From a virus: a DNA stretch of 64,000 nucleotides. Location: IMG/VR virus record IMGVR_UViG_3300043411_001114, positions 48,367 through 112,366 of that record. One strand, 5' to 3'. Each line of letters starts with the position of its first letter. Position 1 is the first letter of the stretch. The position numbers and the translations under genes were made by a program. This document shows positions 47,881 to 63,322 of the stretch, piece after piece. The notes below the pieces were generated by a model. It had not been told where the DNA came from and did not search any database. It saw only the letters and a list, made by a program, of their open reading frames with translations.

Positions 47881-50061
47881 ATGACCAAAACCGTATTGGT
47901 TAACAACTTCGATCCCATCGGTCAGTTCAAGTCTGGAATCTCCTCCGGCACGCCCTGGGATTCGATTGTTGATTTCGCCACCAGCAAATCATTCTGCGGT
48001 AAGAGGCTCTATCCCCGGCAGATGACCCTGCTCAAGCTGATCTACCTCGAAACCGAGTCGATGACCGACTACGACATGGAGGTCATCGGTCAGTGGGCCG
48101 AGGGGTTCAAGAACGTCAATCACCCGACCGGTGTCCAGCCCGACATCTGGGACCGGATCGACTACCTCAAGGCCAACGGCTTCACCCATTTCCCGCACGT
48201 CCAGATGGTGATGGGCCGCCGCGCCTCCAAAGGCATCATCGGCAGTATTCTGGCCACCGAACGGATCGCCTGGCTCTACTCGCTCGGTTCCTGGCAGCAG
48301 CATTTCAACCAGGTTCCCGGTCAGGTCGCCGAGATCACCGTCGTCGCCAACAGCCTGACCCAGGCCGTGACCCGGCAGTTTCGGGATATTCGCAACGCCG
48401 TGTTCGCCTGCGAGTATCTGAGGCCACACATAGTCGGCGATAAACAAACCGAATTTTATATCCGCACCCCGGGCGATGAGCAGACCATTATCGAGAACAA
48501 CCTGGCCGGAATCACCTCCGACCGGGAGATCGCCACCATCTACTGCAAGGCCTCCAGTTCGGTCTCCACCAGCGGTCGTGGCGGCACAGGGCTTTTCAAC
48601 GCCTACGACGAGTTTGCCCACATGCTGGCCGGTACCGGCTCCACCAAGACCGGCGAGGAAATCTACGACGCCTTCCAGCCCTCGCTCGACCAGTTCGGTC
48701 ATCACGCCATGACCTACTGTGCCTCTTCGCCCTTCTCGAAAATCGGCAAATTTTATGATCTGTACCAGCAGGGCCGGATCACCACGGATTCCTACAACCT
48801 GCGCGAGGGGAAGCTGAAGACCACCAGCTTCATTGAGGAGGCCCAGTCCCAGGACATCGACCTCGACCCCGACGAGATCAGCGCCGCCGTCGCCGAGCCG
48901 ACCTTCCTGGTCGTCCAGTTGCCCAGCTGGGACACCTACCGCGACTGGGAGCGGTCGCGTGAGATTCCGATACTTCCCGGCCGCACCCGAACCTTCCCCC
49001 GCTGGAACTCCCCGGTGCAGTACGAGCCGAAAGAGGACGGCACCCCTGACGAGCGGGTGCAGTACCGCCGGATGCGTCGCAACCCCGACAAGTTCAAGGT
49101 CGAGCGGGGCGGCCAGTTCGCCACTGTTCAGGACGCCTACCTCAATGAGGTGATGGTCGACCGGATGTTCGAGCCGCCCGACTGGCGTCCTCCGCTGGAA
49201 ATCCAGCATCAGGGCAAGCTGTCGCTGTCCTATCGTGCCCACGCCGACCCGTCACGCACCAACGCGAATTTCGGATTCTGCATCGCCCACCTCGAACAGG
49301 CACCGCCCGACGAGCACGGCATCTCCTGGCCGCACGTCATCATCGACGTCCTGCACGTCTGGAAGCCCGAGGACTTCAAAGACCACACCATCGACTATGT
49401 CCAGGTCGGTGAGGAACTCGACGACTACCTGCGCCGCTTCCCCTCGACCACCAAGATGACCTACGACCAGTTCAACTCGGCGGGCCTGATCGCCCACCAG
49501 AAGCGGGCCTTCCCCAATATCCGGGTTCTGGAGAAAACTTTCACCCTCAAGGAAAACCAGGATCGCTGCGAGCGCTTCAAGAGCGCCCTCAATCTCGGCT
49601 GGTTGCACGCGCCCCGAGACACCCTCGCCGATGAGGGACAGTCGCTGCTCGAACTGGAATTGAAGTTCCTTCAGGAGAAGAACGGCCGGGTAGACAAGCA
49701 GGACATCGGCCCGATCCAGACCAAAGACCTCGCCGACGCGGCGATGGTCGTGGTCACCGACCTCCTGCACGACAGCCTGGACAAGTGGTGGACCGCCATC
49801 AACCGCACCTCGGTCGGCTCGACCGACTCGGTAGGCCTGCGCTCCGGCCGCGAACTCGACAGGATCAGCGCCTACAGCGCCCCCGGTACGGGCGACCCGA
49901 TGCAGCGCTACTTGGCCGAGGAGGCCAACCGCTATGAGCGCAAGACGATCCGCGCCGAGCGGAACAGGACCGTGATCGGGGCCAACAAGCTGGAGCGCGC
50001 CCGCCGCAAGTCGGGTCATGTTCCGACCTATAGTAACTCTAGAACCAGAGGGTTCCGGTAG
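47881..50061 (+). CDS. terL: Terminase large subunit
   Basis: The 726-residue product has a P-loop-like motif (VMGRRASKGIIGSILATER), Walker B with catalytic acid (GLFNAYDEFAHML) and a C-terminal RNase H-like nuclease part with spaced acidic residues (LSYRAHADPSRTN, HVIIDVLHVWKPED, MTYDQFNSAGL, DIGPIQTKDLADAAMVV). This ATPase packages DNA into heads. The ATG follows CTATACG by nine bases without a Shine-Dalgarno, so the mRNA may be leaderless. It stands apart from other head genes. Confidence 0.85.
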   Translation: MTKTVLVNNFDPIGQFKSGISSGTPWDSIVDFATSKSFCGKRLYPRQMTLLKLIYLETESMTDYDMEVIGQWAEGFKNVNHPTGVQPDIWDRIDYLKANGFTHFPHVQMVMGRRASKGIIGSILATERIAWLYSLGSWQQHFNQVPGQVAEITVVANSLTQAVTRQFRDIRNAVFACEYLRPHIVGDKQTEFYIRTPGDEQTIIENNLAGITSDREIATIYCKASSSVSTSGRGGTGLFNAYDEFAHMLAGTGSTKTGEEIYDAFQPSLDQFGHHAMTYCASSPFSKIGKFYDLYQQGRITTDSYNLREGKLKTTSFIEEAQSQDIDLDPDEISAAVAEPTFLVVQLPSWDTYRDWERSREIPILPGRTRTFPRWNSPVQYEPKEDGTPDERVQYRRMRRNPDKFKVERGGQFATVQDAYLNEVMVDRMFEPPDWRPPLEIQHQGKLSLSYRAHADPSRTNANFGFCIAHLEQAPPDEHGISWPHVIIDVLHVWKPEDFKDHTIDYVQVGEELDDYLRRFPSTTKMTYDQFNSAGLIAHQKRAFPNIRVLEKTFTLKENQDRCERFKSALNLGWLHAPRDTLADEGQSLLELELKFLQEKNGRVDKQDIGPIQTKDLADAAMVVVTDLLHDSLDKWWTAINRTSVGSTDSVGLRSGRELDRISAYSAPGTGDPMQRYLAEEANRYERKTIRAERNRTVIGANKLERARRKSGHVPTYSNSRTRGFR

Positions 50062-58361: not shown

Positions 58362-58931
58362 TTGAAGATCGGCTCATTATTCACTGGTGCGGGAGGGCTG
58401 GATATGGCCGTCTCTGCCGCCTTCGGCGGAAATGTCGTCTGGCACTGTGAGGTGGAAAAAAGCGTCAATAAGTTGCTGGAGCACCGCTTCCCTGAAGTCC
58501 CTAATCTGGGAGACGTCAGTCAGGTCGACTGGAACTCAGTCGAGAGGGTGGATGTCCTTTGTGGGGGATTCCCCTGCCAAGATGTTTCCAGCGCGGGGAA
58601 AAGAGCGGGAATAGTTCCGGGAACCCGTTCTGGTCTGTGGACAATGTTCGCCAGCGCTATTGAGGTCATCCGGCCCCGTCATGTCATCATCGAAAATGTG
58701 AGAGGAATCTTGAGTGCTAAAGCCCATCGCAGTGTGGAATCCGGAGAAGGAGATTTGGGAGAAGGAGAATCCCTCATCCTCAAAGCAATGGGTGCTGTTC
58801 TCGGCGACCTTTCCGACCTCGGGTATGATGCGCGGTGGAAAACTGTTTCCGCTGCCTCAGTCGGTGCCCCCCACCGCAGAGACCGAGTCTTCATCCACGC
58901 CTATCCCCGAAGAGTGTTTTCACACACCTGA
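58362..58931 (+). CDS. C5 cytosine DNA methyltransferase, catalytic part
   Basis: The 189-residue product holds motifs I (IGSLFTGAGGLDMAV), IV with the catalytic Cys (GGFPCQDVSSAGKRAGIV), VI (HVIIENVRGIL) and VIII (VGAPHRRDRVFIHAY). It ends shortly after motif VIII, while motifs IX and X lie in frames further on. Its last 218 bases overlap the next frame. A +1 shift at CCCC near 58910 would fuse it to that frame. TTG start. Methylation would protect phage DNA from host restriction. Confidence 0.82.
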   Translation: MKIGSLFTGAGGLDMAVSAAFGGNVVWHCEVEKSVNKLLEHRFPEVPNLGDVSQVDWNSVERVDVLCGGFPCQDVSSAGKRAGIVPGTRSGLWTMFASAIEVIRPRHVIIENVRGILSAKAHRSVESGEGDLGEGESLILKAMGAVLGDLSDLGYDARWKTVSAASVGAPHRRDRVFIHAYPRRVFSHT

Positions 58932-59289
58932 CACCGCTCCTGACGCACCGAACAAAGGATCGAATACCAGGAGCAAGCCTGCCGGACTGGGCAACCGGGT
59001 CAAGGAACTGGGTGAATCGTTGATGCTCACCCCGAACGCCAGTGACTACCAAGGTCAGCCTGGTCGGCCTTCCCGAGACAGACATCAGTCGTCAGTCGGC
59101 GATCAGGTCGTGGCACCGCTGCGCACACCTCAGGCGGCGGTGACCGAACCGAAGCGCGGCATTAAGTTGGAAGGCCGCACCCCCTCCGATCCCCAGGTCG
59201 GTTTGGCTGATCAGGTGGCGGTTCTTGGCGAGCAAGCAAGAGAGCCATTGTGCAGTTGCTCTTGTGCTCGTCACGGGGTGGAGAATTGA
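58714..59289 (+). CDS. Methyltransferase middle frame (overprinted on the catalytic frame)
   Basis: The frame starts at GTG with AGAGGAA seven bases upstream and runs in +1 relative to the catalytic frame for 218 bases. It encodes VWNPEKEIWEKENPSSSK, FSATFPTSGMMRGGKLFPLP and ESSSTPIPEE, which resemble the conserved WPxSGMTRxG...LP segment of phage C5 methyltransferase target-recognition regions, then LMLTPNASDYQ and PLRTPQAA repeats. So the same DNA seems to encode motif VIII in one frame and this segment in another. It ends just before the third frame. Confidence 0.65.
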   Translation: MLKPIAVWNPEKEIWEKENPSSSKQWVLFSATFPTSGMMRGGKLFPLPQSVPPTAETESSSTPIPEECFHTPDTAPDAPNKGSNTRSKPAGLGNRVKELGESLMLTPNASDYQGQPGRPSRDRHQSSVGDQVVAPLRTPQAAVTEPKRGIKLEGRTPSDPQVGLADQVAVLGEQAREPLCSCSCARHGVEN

Positions 59290-59291
59290 AG

Positions 59292-60614
59292 GTGAAGTTG
59301 CTCCCCACGCCTCGTGTCAGTGACAGTAAGGGTGTGGACAACGAAACCGAATGGGCACGCCATTCGCCCGGCCTGGCCGCCATGTCGTTCCACCTCCGCA
59401 GCGATGACGATCAGGCCGGACGCGACGACGAGAAGCTGTTCTCCACCCCGCAGGCACGCGACTGGAAGGGTGTGCCCGGCGACACCTACAACTCGCACAA
59501 CCTGGCCCGCGATATCAGCAGGCTGGTGGCTGAGGAGCCGGATGTCCTGCTGCTGCCCGCGCCTCGTGCCATACGCGGCGGGTCAGCCACCGAGACTCTC
59601 AATCTTCTCCAGCCAATCCCGGAGCAGACCGAGAAGCTGCCGATGCTCCCCACGCCTCGTGCCATACGCGGCGGGTCAGCCACCGAGACTCTCAATCTTC
59701 TCCAGCCAATCCCGGAGCAGACCGAGAAGCTGCCGATGCTCCCCACCCCGACCGCCGAGGAGGCCCTGACCCTCTTCCCTACCCCAGGCGCGTCTGACGG
59801 CAACGGCGGCAAGTCACCGAAGGACCTGAGTGCGACGACCAGGGCATCCGGCGCGAAGCGCCAGGTCTGCCTGCCCGAGGCGGTCAAGCTGCTGCCCACC
59901 CCACAGTCGCGTGACGCTACCGGCGGGAAACCTGCCGCTGTGGAGCGTGGCCGGGGCTACGGTGCGAACATGAATGATGTGGCGGCAGCCGGTCTGTTCG
60001 ACCAGGGCGGCGACGATCCACTGCTCCCCACCCCGATGGCCAAAGAGATCGGACTCTCGCCTGAGCAGTTTGACTCGTGGGCTGACAGGCTCAAGGGCAA
60101 GGGTTACAACGGCAACGGTCGGGGTAAGTCACTGGCCGTAGAGGTGCAACGCTTTAAACTGACAGACGCTGTACTGGACAAAGACTTGGGAGAGAACGTG
60201 GACGATATCTTGCCGACCCCGAAGACGCATCAGCTCGGCGACTGCCCGTCCGAGCGGGAGCGCAACAGCCCTGACTTGGCGGCGGTGACCCACCACTTCC
60301 CCGTCGAGGAGCAGCCGCAGGCCATTCCGGTTTTGTGGGGGAAGTACGATCCTGCGGTTCGTCGCTGGGAAAAACTCACCCGTCCGGCTCCGATTCCGAC
60401 TGAACCTAACAAGAACGGTAACCCGAGGTTGGCGGCACCCTTTTCTGAATGGATGATGGGGTGGCCGGAAGGATGGGTGACAGACCCGGAGATCGGGTTG
60501 CCCAGGACCGCTCAGCTTAAAATCATCGGTAATGGCGTCTGCCCTCAGCAGGCGTATTCGGCAATCACCGAACTCCTGTCGATTCATGCCTCAGAGGAAA
60601 AGATGATCCAATGA
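59292..60614 (+). CDS. Methyltransferase C-terminal frame with LLPTP repeats
   Basis: GTG 59292 follows GGAG. The product (440 aa) consists of repeats beginning KLLPTPRVSD, LFSTPQARD, MLPTP, LLPTPQSRD, LLPTPMAKE and ILPTPKTH, then WGKYDPAVRRWEKLTRPAPI, FSEWMMGWPEGWVTD and IIGNGVCPQQAYSAI (motif X). That is the usual C-terminal half of actinophage C5 methyltransferases. Motif IX/X must combine with the catalytic frame, so three polypeptides or frameshifting must make the enzyme. It contains an exact tandem 93-base duplication. Confidence 0.75.
   Translation: MKLLPTPRVSDSKGVDNETEWARHSPGLAAMSFHLRSDDDQAGRDDEKLFSTPQARDWKGVPGDTYNSHNLARDISRLVAEEPDVLLLPAPRAIRGGSATETLNLLQPIPEQTEKLPMLPTPRAIRGGSATETLNLLQPIPEQTEKLPMLPTPTAEEALTLFPTPGASDGNGGKSPKDLSATTRASGAKRQVCLPEAVKLLPTPQSRDATGGKPAAVERGRGYGANMNDVAAAGLFDQGGDDPLLPTPMAKEIGLSPEQFDSWADRLKGKGYNGNGRGKSLAVEVQRFKLTDAVLDKDLGENVDDILPTPKTHQLGDCPSERERNSPDLAAVTHHFPVEEQPQAIPVLWGKYDPAVRRWEKLTRPAPIPTEPNKNGNPRLAAPFSEWMMGWPEGWVTDPEIGLPRTAQLKIIGNGVCPQQAYSAITELLSIHASEEKMIQ
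59561..59745 (+). repeat. Tandem 93-bp duplication in the methyltransferase gene
   Basis: Two directly adjacent 93-base units (59561-59653 and from 59654) look identical by eye and add 31 residues (from PRAIRGGSATETLNLL to KLPMLPT). The perfect match indicates a recent event and the length keeps the frame. Confidence 0.85.
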
Positions 60615-62056: not shown

Positions 62057-63322
62057 ATGCCCAAGCACGGACTCACCACCAGCAGCAACTCCAACAAGAC
62101 CGCCCGGGCGACCGTCGCCCGGTGGAACGACAAGGTCAAGCGCCACACCCTTTACACGGTGTGCGGCACCAGCCAGGACGGCTGGGGGCTGATGACCCGG
62201 CCCACCGACTCGAATGGCCTCAACGCGCTGCTGGCCCTGGCCCGGACCCTGACCGGCAACAACTCGCTGCAGTTGAGCGACCTCCCGTCCACCGGCGAGT
62301 ACACCCCGGTGTGGGCCTCCTCGTTCGACACCGCCACCGCGCGCCAGGTGAACTCCAGCCTGTACAACTGGGTGCCGATCAGCTACCCGGCCGGTGGCCC
62401 GGGGGTCAACGGCGGACTGGAGAACAACTGGCAGCCGACCGGGTTGTCGATGGCGGCCTCGGTCAAGATGGGTGTCGATGAGTTGACCCGTCAGATCAAG
62501 GCGACCCCGGGTACCTTCGCCCTGATCGGCATGAGCCAGGGTTCGGTGGTGATCAGCCAGGTCCTTAAATCGCTGCTCCCCGGCGGCGCGCTGGCCAGCC
62601 GCTACAAAGACTGCATCGCAGGGGTCGCGTTCGGCAACCCGTGCCGGGCAATCGGGGCCTCCTTCCCGGGCGGCACCCCCGCCTTCGGTGGTGGCGTGTT
62701 GACCTTCCCCAACCCGGCCGAGCCGATCACTGGCGGCCTGAACGGGGTCAAGACCCCGAACTGGTGGTGGGAGATGTCGCTGACCGGAGACTTCTTCTCC
62801 TCGGCCCCGATGCACACCGCCGCCGGGCCGATCCTCACCCCGGCCGTCCAGGCCCTGTTCCGTTTCCCGGGCGGGATGGCGCTGGACGCCAACAGTCTGG
62901 TCGTGATCCTCGGCCTGCTCACCGGTGCCGGGGCCTCGCTGCCGTTGCTGCTGGCCTCCCTGGTGCGGACCGGTTTCTTCAACGCCTCCACGATCTCCAG
63001 CTTCATGGGCGGCGGCGAGGCGAAGGGTCTGCTCTCGATGCTGGCCCAGAAGCAGAAGCAGTCAGCCTCCTCCATCCTCTCGCAGTGGATTTACGACCAG
63101 ATCGGGGCGCTGAACCTCGGTGCCAGCCTGGCCACCGGTGCCCCGGTGATCACCCCGAGCAACACCTACCCGAACGCGAACCCGCACATCCGGTACGGGC
63201 TGGATAAGCCGCCGACCCTGCCGGTCTGGTCGGGCCTGACCGGCCTCAACGGAAACTCGACCTTCGTCGACGTCGCGGTCGCCTACCTCAATCGTCGGGC
63301 GGTCGAGGTCGCGCCCCGGTAA
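62057..63322 (+). CDS. Cutinase/LysB-like serine esterase
   Basis: The 421-residue product has a serine-esterase nucleophile elbow (FALIGMSQGSVVISQVLKSL) and FGNPCRAIGASFPGG, the layout of cutinase-like and LysB-like enzymes. A hydrophobic insert is seen around residues 290-310 (LVVILGLLTGAGASLPLLLA). It is a second potential cell-wall lipid esterase besides LysB and is paired with the glycosidase-like gene, so the two may be virion-associated proteins acting on the host envelope. A terminator follows. Confidence 0.72.
   Translation: MPKHGLTTSSNSNKTARATVARWNDKVKRHTLYTVCGTSQDGWGLMTRPTDSNGLNALLALARTLTGNNSLQLSDLPSTGEYTPVWASSFDTATARQVNSSLYNWVPISYPAGGPGVNGGLENNWQPTGLSMAASVKMGVDELTRQIKATPGTFALIGMSQGSVVISQVLKSLLPGGALASRYKDCIAGVAFGNPCRAIGASFPGGTPAFGGGVLTFPNPAEPITGGLNGVKTPNWWWEMSLTGDFFSSAPMHTAAGPILTPAVQALFRFPGGMALDANSLVVILGLLTGAGASLPLLLASLVRTGFFNASTISSFMGGGEAKGLLSMLAQKQKQSASSILSQWIYDQIGALNLGASLATGAPVITPSNTYPNANPHIRYGLDKPPTLPVWSGLTGLNGNSTFVDVAVAYLNRRAVEVAPR

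Follow-up and report, generated by a model that had tools for sequence, protein, structure and literature searches.

Two-chain C5-methyltransferases are already known, M.EcoHK31I and M.AquI among them. In M.EcoHK31I, the small gene is nested inside the large gene in another reading frame, and the single-chain enzyme M.HhaI contains a full target-recognition domain. According to PMC3404938, M.EcoHK31I (YGGCCR) comprises a larger chain with motifs I–VIII and X and a smaller chain with motif IX, while in M.AquI (CYCGRG) the larger chain carries motifs I–VIII and the smaller one motifs IX–X. M.EcoHK31I is also called a naturally split enzyme in PMC3439449. An actinophage DNA methylase gene can also contain an out-of-frame ORF of another kind, described as the ShiLan domain, a hidden HNH endonuclease (PMC11855218). 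The ShiLan domain is a mobile HNH insertion, whereas the segment described here, termed beta-N, is part of the methyltransferase itself, and a second methyltransferase chain is given no mention in the accessible part of PMC11855218. A literature search, which covered few subscription journals, returned no paper on the recurrence of the overlap in phages or on beta-N. What is new here is the extent of the arrangement, the proof of dual coding, a third module that switches chains and the missing annotation of beta.

The window (the whole 64,000-nt stretch of DNA that was analysed, positions 48,367 to 112,366 of IMG/VR record IMGVR_UViG_3300043411_001114) comes from a viral record of 112,366 bp, and the features of its methyltransferase locus are collected in Table 1. 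The locus is best read, with a probability of roughly 0.82, as a naturally split phage C5-cytosine methyltransferase with overlapping genes, the chains of which assemble into one enzyme. In the proposed mechanism, alpha (motifs I–VIII) would carry the cofactor site and the catalytic cysteine, and a second gene would start within alpha, right after motif VI, at a GTG served by a ribosome site built from alpha codons. The N-terminal 60 residues of the second chain, beta-N, would be the +1 reading of the DNA for alpha motif VIII and may act as a conserved assembly segment with a docking role. The third module, gamma, would contribute the variable LPTP-repeat region as well as motifs IX and X, being fused to beta-N or alpha in relatives and probably expressed in the window as its own ORF that begins where beta-N ends. 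The chains would join non-covalently to form a single sequence-specific cytosine methyltransferase, with target recognition presumably provided by the repeat part, and its methylation probably shields the phage DNA from host restriction.

Table 1. Positions of the split methyltransferase genes, their parts and two further genes in the window
Feature	Position	Strand	Description
Terminase large subunit	47881-50058		
alpha	58362..58931	+	Catalytic chain with C5-methyltransferase motifs I-VIII; TTG start, stop just past motif VIII
ENV codons of alpha	58692..58700	+	Motif VI; followed by AGA GGA (Arg-Gly) codons that form the beta-N ribosome site
AGAGGA	58701..58706	+	Ribosome-site-like, within alpha codons; ends 7 nt 5' of the beta-N GTG
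beta-N ORF	58714..59289	+	+1 relative to alpha; GTG start; SGMxR segment, then the first LTP-type units
Dual-coding overlap	58714..58931	+	218 nt; codes for both the motif VIII part of alpha and the start of beta-N
SGMMRGG	58819..58839	+	beta frame, over the alpha-frame LGYDARW region
GAPHRRDRVFI	58863..58895	+	alpha frame; motif VIII
gamma ORF	59292..60614	+	alpha frame; LPTP-type repeats, WGKY..RWE segment, motifs IX (FSEWMMGWP) and X (IIGNGVCPQQ)
93-bp tandem duplication in gamma	59551..59746	+	2.1 copies, 98% matches; 31 aa of LPTP repeat
Endolysin	62057-63319		

The alpha ORF, whose coordinates agree with those of the first-pass annotation of this DNA, encodes 189 aa and belongs to Pfam family PF00145 (E=4e-35; 122.2 bits against a cut-off of 22), with the catalytic PC motif found in GGFPCQD; the match extends over residues 1–181 and covers model positions 1–161 of 324 only. 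Alpha also matches PHROG_363 (E=5.7e-68) and, in a phmmer comparison, M.HhaI (E=3.6e-15). The beta-N ORF encodes 191 aa, and an in-frame TGA is located immediately 5' of its GTG. Residues 3–136 match PHROG_1008 (DNA methyltransferase) with E=3.5e-14, and the 59-aa core of beta-N matches it by itself (E=1.9e-10), which dispels the concern that the +1-frame similarity might not be significant. The gamma region (59250-60614), the open frame of which begins at 59211, matches the same family with E=9.2e-65, and both motifs IX and X of the window enzyme are present on the gamma ORF. The first-pass annotation had claimed that two conserved methyltransferase segments are encoded in different frames of the same 218 bases and that the +1 segment matches C-terminal regions of phage C5-methyltransferases. 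The first claim holds, the two segments being motif VIII GAPHRRDRVFI and SGMMRGG, and so does the second in that the segment forms part of a C-terminal C5-methyltransferase partner chain. The near-exact 93-bp duplication in gamma suggests that the LPTP array grows and shrinks.

The relatives of the window were assigned by us to architecture classes from their motif layouts, with motifs IX and X located by short regular expressions, for which misses or miscalls are possible, chiefly outside named phages. In type A, the alpha frame encodes motifs I–VIII and X, and beta extends from SGMxR to IX (most of 52 loci, several being without a detected IX or X). In type B (14 loci), alpha contains motifs I–VIII and beta extends from SGMxR to X. 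In type C (16 loci with L034), the alpha frame encodes motifs I–VIII, IX and X and contains a short nested beta-N; motif IX was not detected by the regular expression in L024 and L033. In the window, L003 and L007, alpha, beta-N and gamma are not joined as in types A–C, and neither IX nor X was found within reach in L007.

By motif layout, most type A relatives thus resemble M.EcoHK31I, with beta nested in the +1 frame, while type B relatives share the split of M.AquI. The window shares with M.EcoHK31I, as that system is generally understood, a second chain in another frame of alpha (here with a 218-nt overlap), but its alpha ends after motif VIII without X, motifs IX and X are on a third ORF and, unlike M.EcoHK31I, it has an LPTP-repeat array. 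With M.AquI it shares the division of motifs I–VIII (alpha) from IX–X (gamma); however, it consists of three ORFs rather than exactly two chains (type B has two), 218 nt of its beta-N lie over the motif VIII region in the +1 frame, and its gamma is a separate ORF. Because X lies off alpha and there are three ORFs, the window is filed under neither type. The likeness to M.HhaI lies in the sequence of alpha and in the predicted fold of the alpha–gamma chain from a type C relative, but M.HhaI, unlike the window enzyme, is a single chain with no overlap and no beta-N.

The recurrence of the overlap across methyltransferase pairs, which had been proposed as a check, was assessed with a beta-N profile grown from residues 1–66 of the window beta. 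Beta-N was found in the +1 frame of alpha at 86 of 87 loci (the window and 85 of the 86 other first-fetched loci), and the sole exception, L032, is cut off by a contig end before the region. In L001, alpha is frameshifted in the record, and the second alpha piece is still in the +1 relation to beta-N. Because 80 of the first-fetched loci had been obtained with alpha as the query, separate searches used beta-N as the only query. Bacterial and archaeal genomes were scanned with a closely related 10-row alignment, a diverse 28-row beta-N alignment having no conserved stretch, and alpha was present in the -1 frame at 24/24 loci, which according to record titles represent several bacterial phyla and one archaeal bin. 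Whole-genome searches with beta-N yielded matches in one class (22 of 296 genomes) and in one phylum (5 of 299 genomes); at the 33 distinct places identified in these genomes and five further ones, alpha was found by profile in the -1 frame relative to beta-N in 31 cases. At the remaining two places, L134 and L143, alpha is damaged and the expected frame retains a motif-VIII-like remnant, for which decay or trans-complementation are possible explanations; the beta-N frame match remains strong at both, and one TAG interrupts the open frame of L143. Viral scans returned one locus with the window beta and two loci with one type B beta. The overlap has been found across many phages as well as in bacteria and one archaeal bin.

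No beta-N outside an overlap was found among the first-fetched loci, the beta-N genome scans or the 33 whole-genome places, and an SGMxR segment placed well downstream in a single frame, clear of alpha, the layout that would have argued against overprinting, was not seen. The beta-N profile was built from the +1 frames of alpha genes and its matches are biased towards overlaps, so the absence of non-overlapping copies falls short of proof; synonymous shuffles and ordinary PF00145 loci served as controls for this bias. Two alpha/beta-N overlaps, both +1, are located close together in phage Tweety (L183) and in Streptomyces sp. LBL (L110).

The impression that both frames look like selected protein, recorded in the first-pass annotation, is confirmed by the conservation of fourfold sites, by shuffles and by the codon positions at which changes occur. 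Among 85 sequences, alpha-frame fourfold-site identity rises from 0.323 upstream to 0.584 in the overlap (MWU p=7e-12). The rise is significant separately in type A (0.313 to 0.542), in type B with the window counted in (0.317 to 0.556) and in type C (0.465 to 0.697, p=5e-6), with L003, L007 and L034 entering only the set of all sequences. It starts near residue 101 in the group with the earlier beta start and after residue 110 in the other group, and third-position conservation peaks at alpha residues 151–160, at SGMxR, where fourfold identity reaches 0.87 and 0.89 in the two groups. The codon tests left out L006 (the window's own genome), L032 (contig end) and L001 (broken alpha), and the first round of codon-position pair tests left out L084 as well.

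The positions of changes were compared in 14 disjoint close pairs and the window/L007 pair, earlier pair tests having shared sequences between pairs. In the disjoint pairs, 70–86% of changes 5' of the overlap fall at alpha position 3. Inside the overlap, the share of alpha position 1 is 0.31–0.39 and that of position 3 is 0.55–0.57, and past it the largest share (0.41–0.74) falls to alpha position 1, the third position of the beta codons. This shift is significant in each of types A, B and C, both between the upstream region and the overlap (p from 1.4e-3 to 5.6e-3) and between the upstream region and that beyond the overlap (p<1e-20). In type C, the pattern past the beta stop moves back towards the alpha frame (position 3 share 0.53). 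In the single window/L007 pair, the shift between upstream and overlap was not significant (p=0.82), and that between upstream and beyond the overlap gave p=1.6e-3.

The +1 similarity might also be regarded as a shadow of the strong conservation of alpha DNA, beta-N being no protein at all. Synonymous alpha shuffles, scored with a beta-N model trained only on the other group, indicate that part of the similarity is indeed of this kind, since they average 22.0 bits in the window's group (32 sequences) and 18.1 bits in the other group (52 sequences); the +2 frame also beats its shuffles, as must follow if third positions are held fixed. However, the real sequences reach means of 53.7 and 43.9 bits, respectively, a real score being attained by 0/3,200 shuffles in the first group and 33/5,200 in the second, and the window itself reaches 56.7 bits, the best of its shuffles 42.0. 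Of the real sequences, 83/84 have an open +1 frame, compared with 25% and 34% of shuffles in the two groups and 0/100 shuffles of the window, whereas the +2 frame is open in 9/84. The +2 control was used only for frame openness, because its score is confounded by the third positions held by beta, which conserve +2 too. Of 30 PF00145 loci, comprising 28 distinct genes, in 40 genomes belonging to the same class, six exceed 20 bits for beta-N in the +1 frame (23.7 to 81.0), and the other 24, as ordinary C5-methyltransferase genes, do not exceed 5.4 bits. Moreover, alpha third positions are held inside the overlap only, and past it substitutions track beta codon positions, so that a mere shadow is already contradicted by the position-of-change data and its probability is negligible. 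With fewer synonymous changes confined to the overlap and the accompanying codon-position shift, the overlap in the window is genuine dual coding, in which both frames are selected as protein.

On the alpha tree, the bootstrap of which is not fully settled, type A lies on one side of a branch (100/99), and the four classes together need 7 changes against the least possible 3; L002 (type B, phage Inventum) and L005 (type C, phage mcgavigan) are close sisters. Gamma switches chain repeatedly, even between sister phages that are almost identical, while the overlap persists, as a non-covalent assembly of the modules would lead one to expect. Most type C beta stops are located directly 5' of an LPTP unit starting in the alpha frame (L027 is without such a unit), and since the stops abut these units, the two frames share out the DNA. 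The number of LPTP units differs among relatives.

The three ORFs of the window could also have resulted from a recent break of a single-chain methyltransferase gene by frameshifts or sequencing errors, and a damaged alpha does occur in a few members (L134, L143 and the alpha record of L001). Such a pseudogene is nevertheless very improbable, as many independent genomes share the two sites of frame change, namely the beta start past motif VI and the beta stop directly 5' of an LPTP unit. In addition, any one-frame version must lose either motif VIII or SGMxR, because both use the same bases. The module layouts also bear on whether beta-N could be a separate protein with its own job, for example as a regulator or an anti-restriction factor, encoded within the alpha gene. 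The type C chain already contains motifs I–X, yet its beta-N stays selected, as the fourfold identities given above demonstrate, which would suit an independent function. In types A and B, on the other hand, beta-N is covalently joined to motif IX or IX–X of the same enzyme and is therefore tied to the methyltransferase, which makes a separate role unlikely.

The start of beta-N is conserved in the window's group, where a GTG occurs in the same ENVRG-type motif VI context of alpha at 31 of 33 loci (the exceptions being L027 and L087), with a Shine–Dalgarno match of at least 4 nt at 23 of those 31; a beta-frame stop is present no more than 42 nt upstream of the beta-N core at 24 of the 33 loci. 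The ribosome site of beta-N had initially been described as strong; the site is present and recurs in relatives, but its strength, judged from AGAGGA, is moderate. In type A (L035–L086), no start codon is kept near beta-N, though the frame is open and selected. This lack, together with the succession of frames (+1, then -1), would fit the production of beta from alpha by programmed ribosomal frameshifting, or of gamma from beta-N by a -1 shift. Frameshifting is improbable given the GTG and Shine–Dalgarno matches kept in the window's group and the preceding beta-frame stop, which in the window stands directly before the GTG. Furthermore, selection on the alpha frame continues through motif VIII, and a frameshift product would not contain this motif. 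The window gamma has starts of its own, the likely one being GTG 59292 with GGAG 8 nt upstream, while an alternative TTG at 59286 overlaps the beta-N stop as TTGA; no slippery heptamer was seen by eye at that stop. In L007 and L034, GTGA is found at the beta stops.

In the phages DotProduct (L180), Inspectinfecti (L181) and Lennon (L187), alpha contains an insertion at the beta start, at about 1514-2003. The insertion is annotated as an endonuclease or HNH ORF in Inspectinfecti and Lennon, and DotProduct contains a similar stretch without a separate annotation. In all three phages, the stop of the inserted beta-frame ORF directly abuts a new ATG for beta-N. Seen from beta, the 'hidden HNH' sits between genes and not within one.

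The 320-aa alpha–gamma chain of L027 (type C) was predicted with a mean pLDDT of 75, and the model resembles M.HhaI (Z 21.6, 221 residues, 2.9 A), with residues 192–229, the stretch overlapping beta, being disordered. In this model, a chain with motifs I–X seems to be without an ordered recognition domain, and the missing domain may be supplied by beta-N and the repeats. Type B beta modelled alone (10 sequences) gave a mean pLDDT of 48, with only the last third ordered, and was left out of the fold search. In sequence searches of the PDB, the beta-N profile had no match at E<=1 and the type B beta profile none at E<=0.1; a comparison of the 10 type B betas with Pfam likewise gave no family at E<=0.1. 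The idea that the overlap itself corresponds to the recognition region is not supported: the overlapped part is the best conserved of beta and is therefore unlikely to recognise the sequence, whereas the variable LPTP repeats are located past the alpha end.

The suggestion that the +1 segment arose from the catalytic core is consistent with its never having been found elsewhere, and an origin of beta-N by overprinting is plausible. A fuller scenario can be put forward only tentatively. According to it, beta-N would have been born by overprinting on the motif VI–VIII region before the actinophage/type A split and would be an obligatory subunit that never left the overlap. The enzyme would then comprise three freely re-linked modules, with gamma hopping between frames and chains, and the alpha frame past motif VIII might in many genomes be a mere by-product of beta.

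The catalytic motif shares its DNA with the second conserved segment, and each therefore constrains the evolution of the other. The alpha/beta-N overlap thus offers a clean natural system in which dual coding can be measured, while the movement of motifs IX–X between chains provides ready-made variants for studies on the assembly of split methyltransferases. In 13 named phage records with 14 places, beta is annotated from its start at two, truncated past its start at four and absent at eight. Since beta is often unannotated, so-called 'single-chain' methyltransferases may be inactive if cloned alone. In the record of Gordonia phage McKinley (L003), alpha (2137-2685) is unannotated, and beta-N (gp4) and the next methyltransferase ORF (gp5) are annotated.
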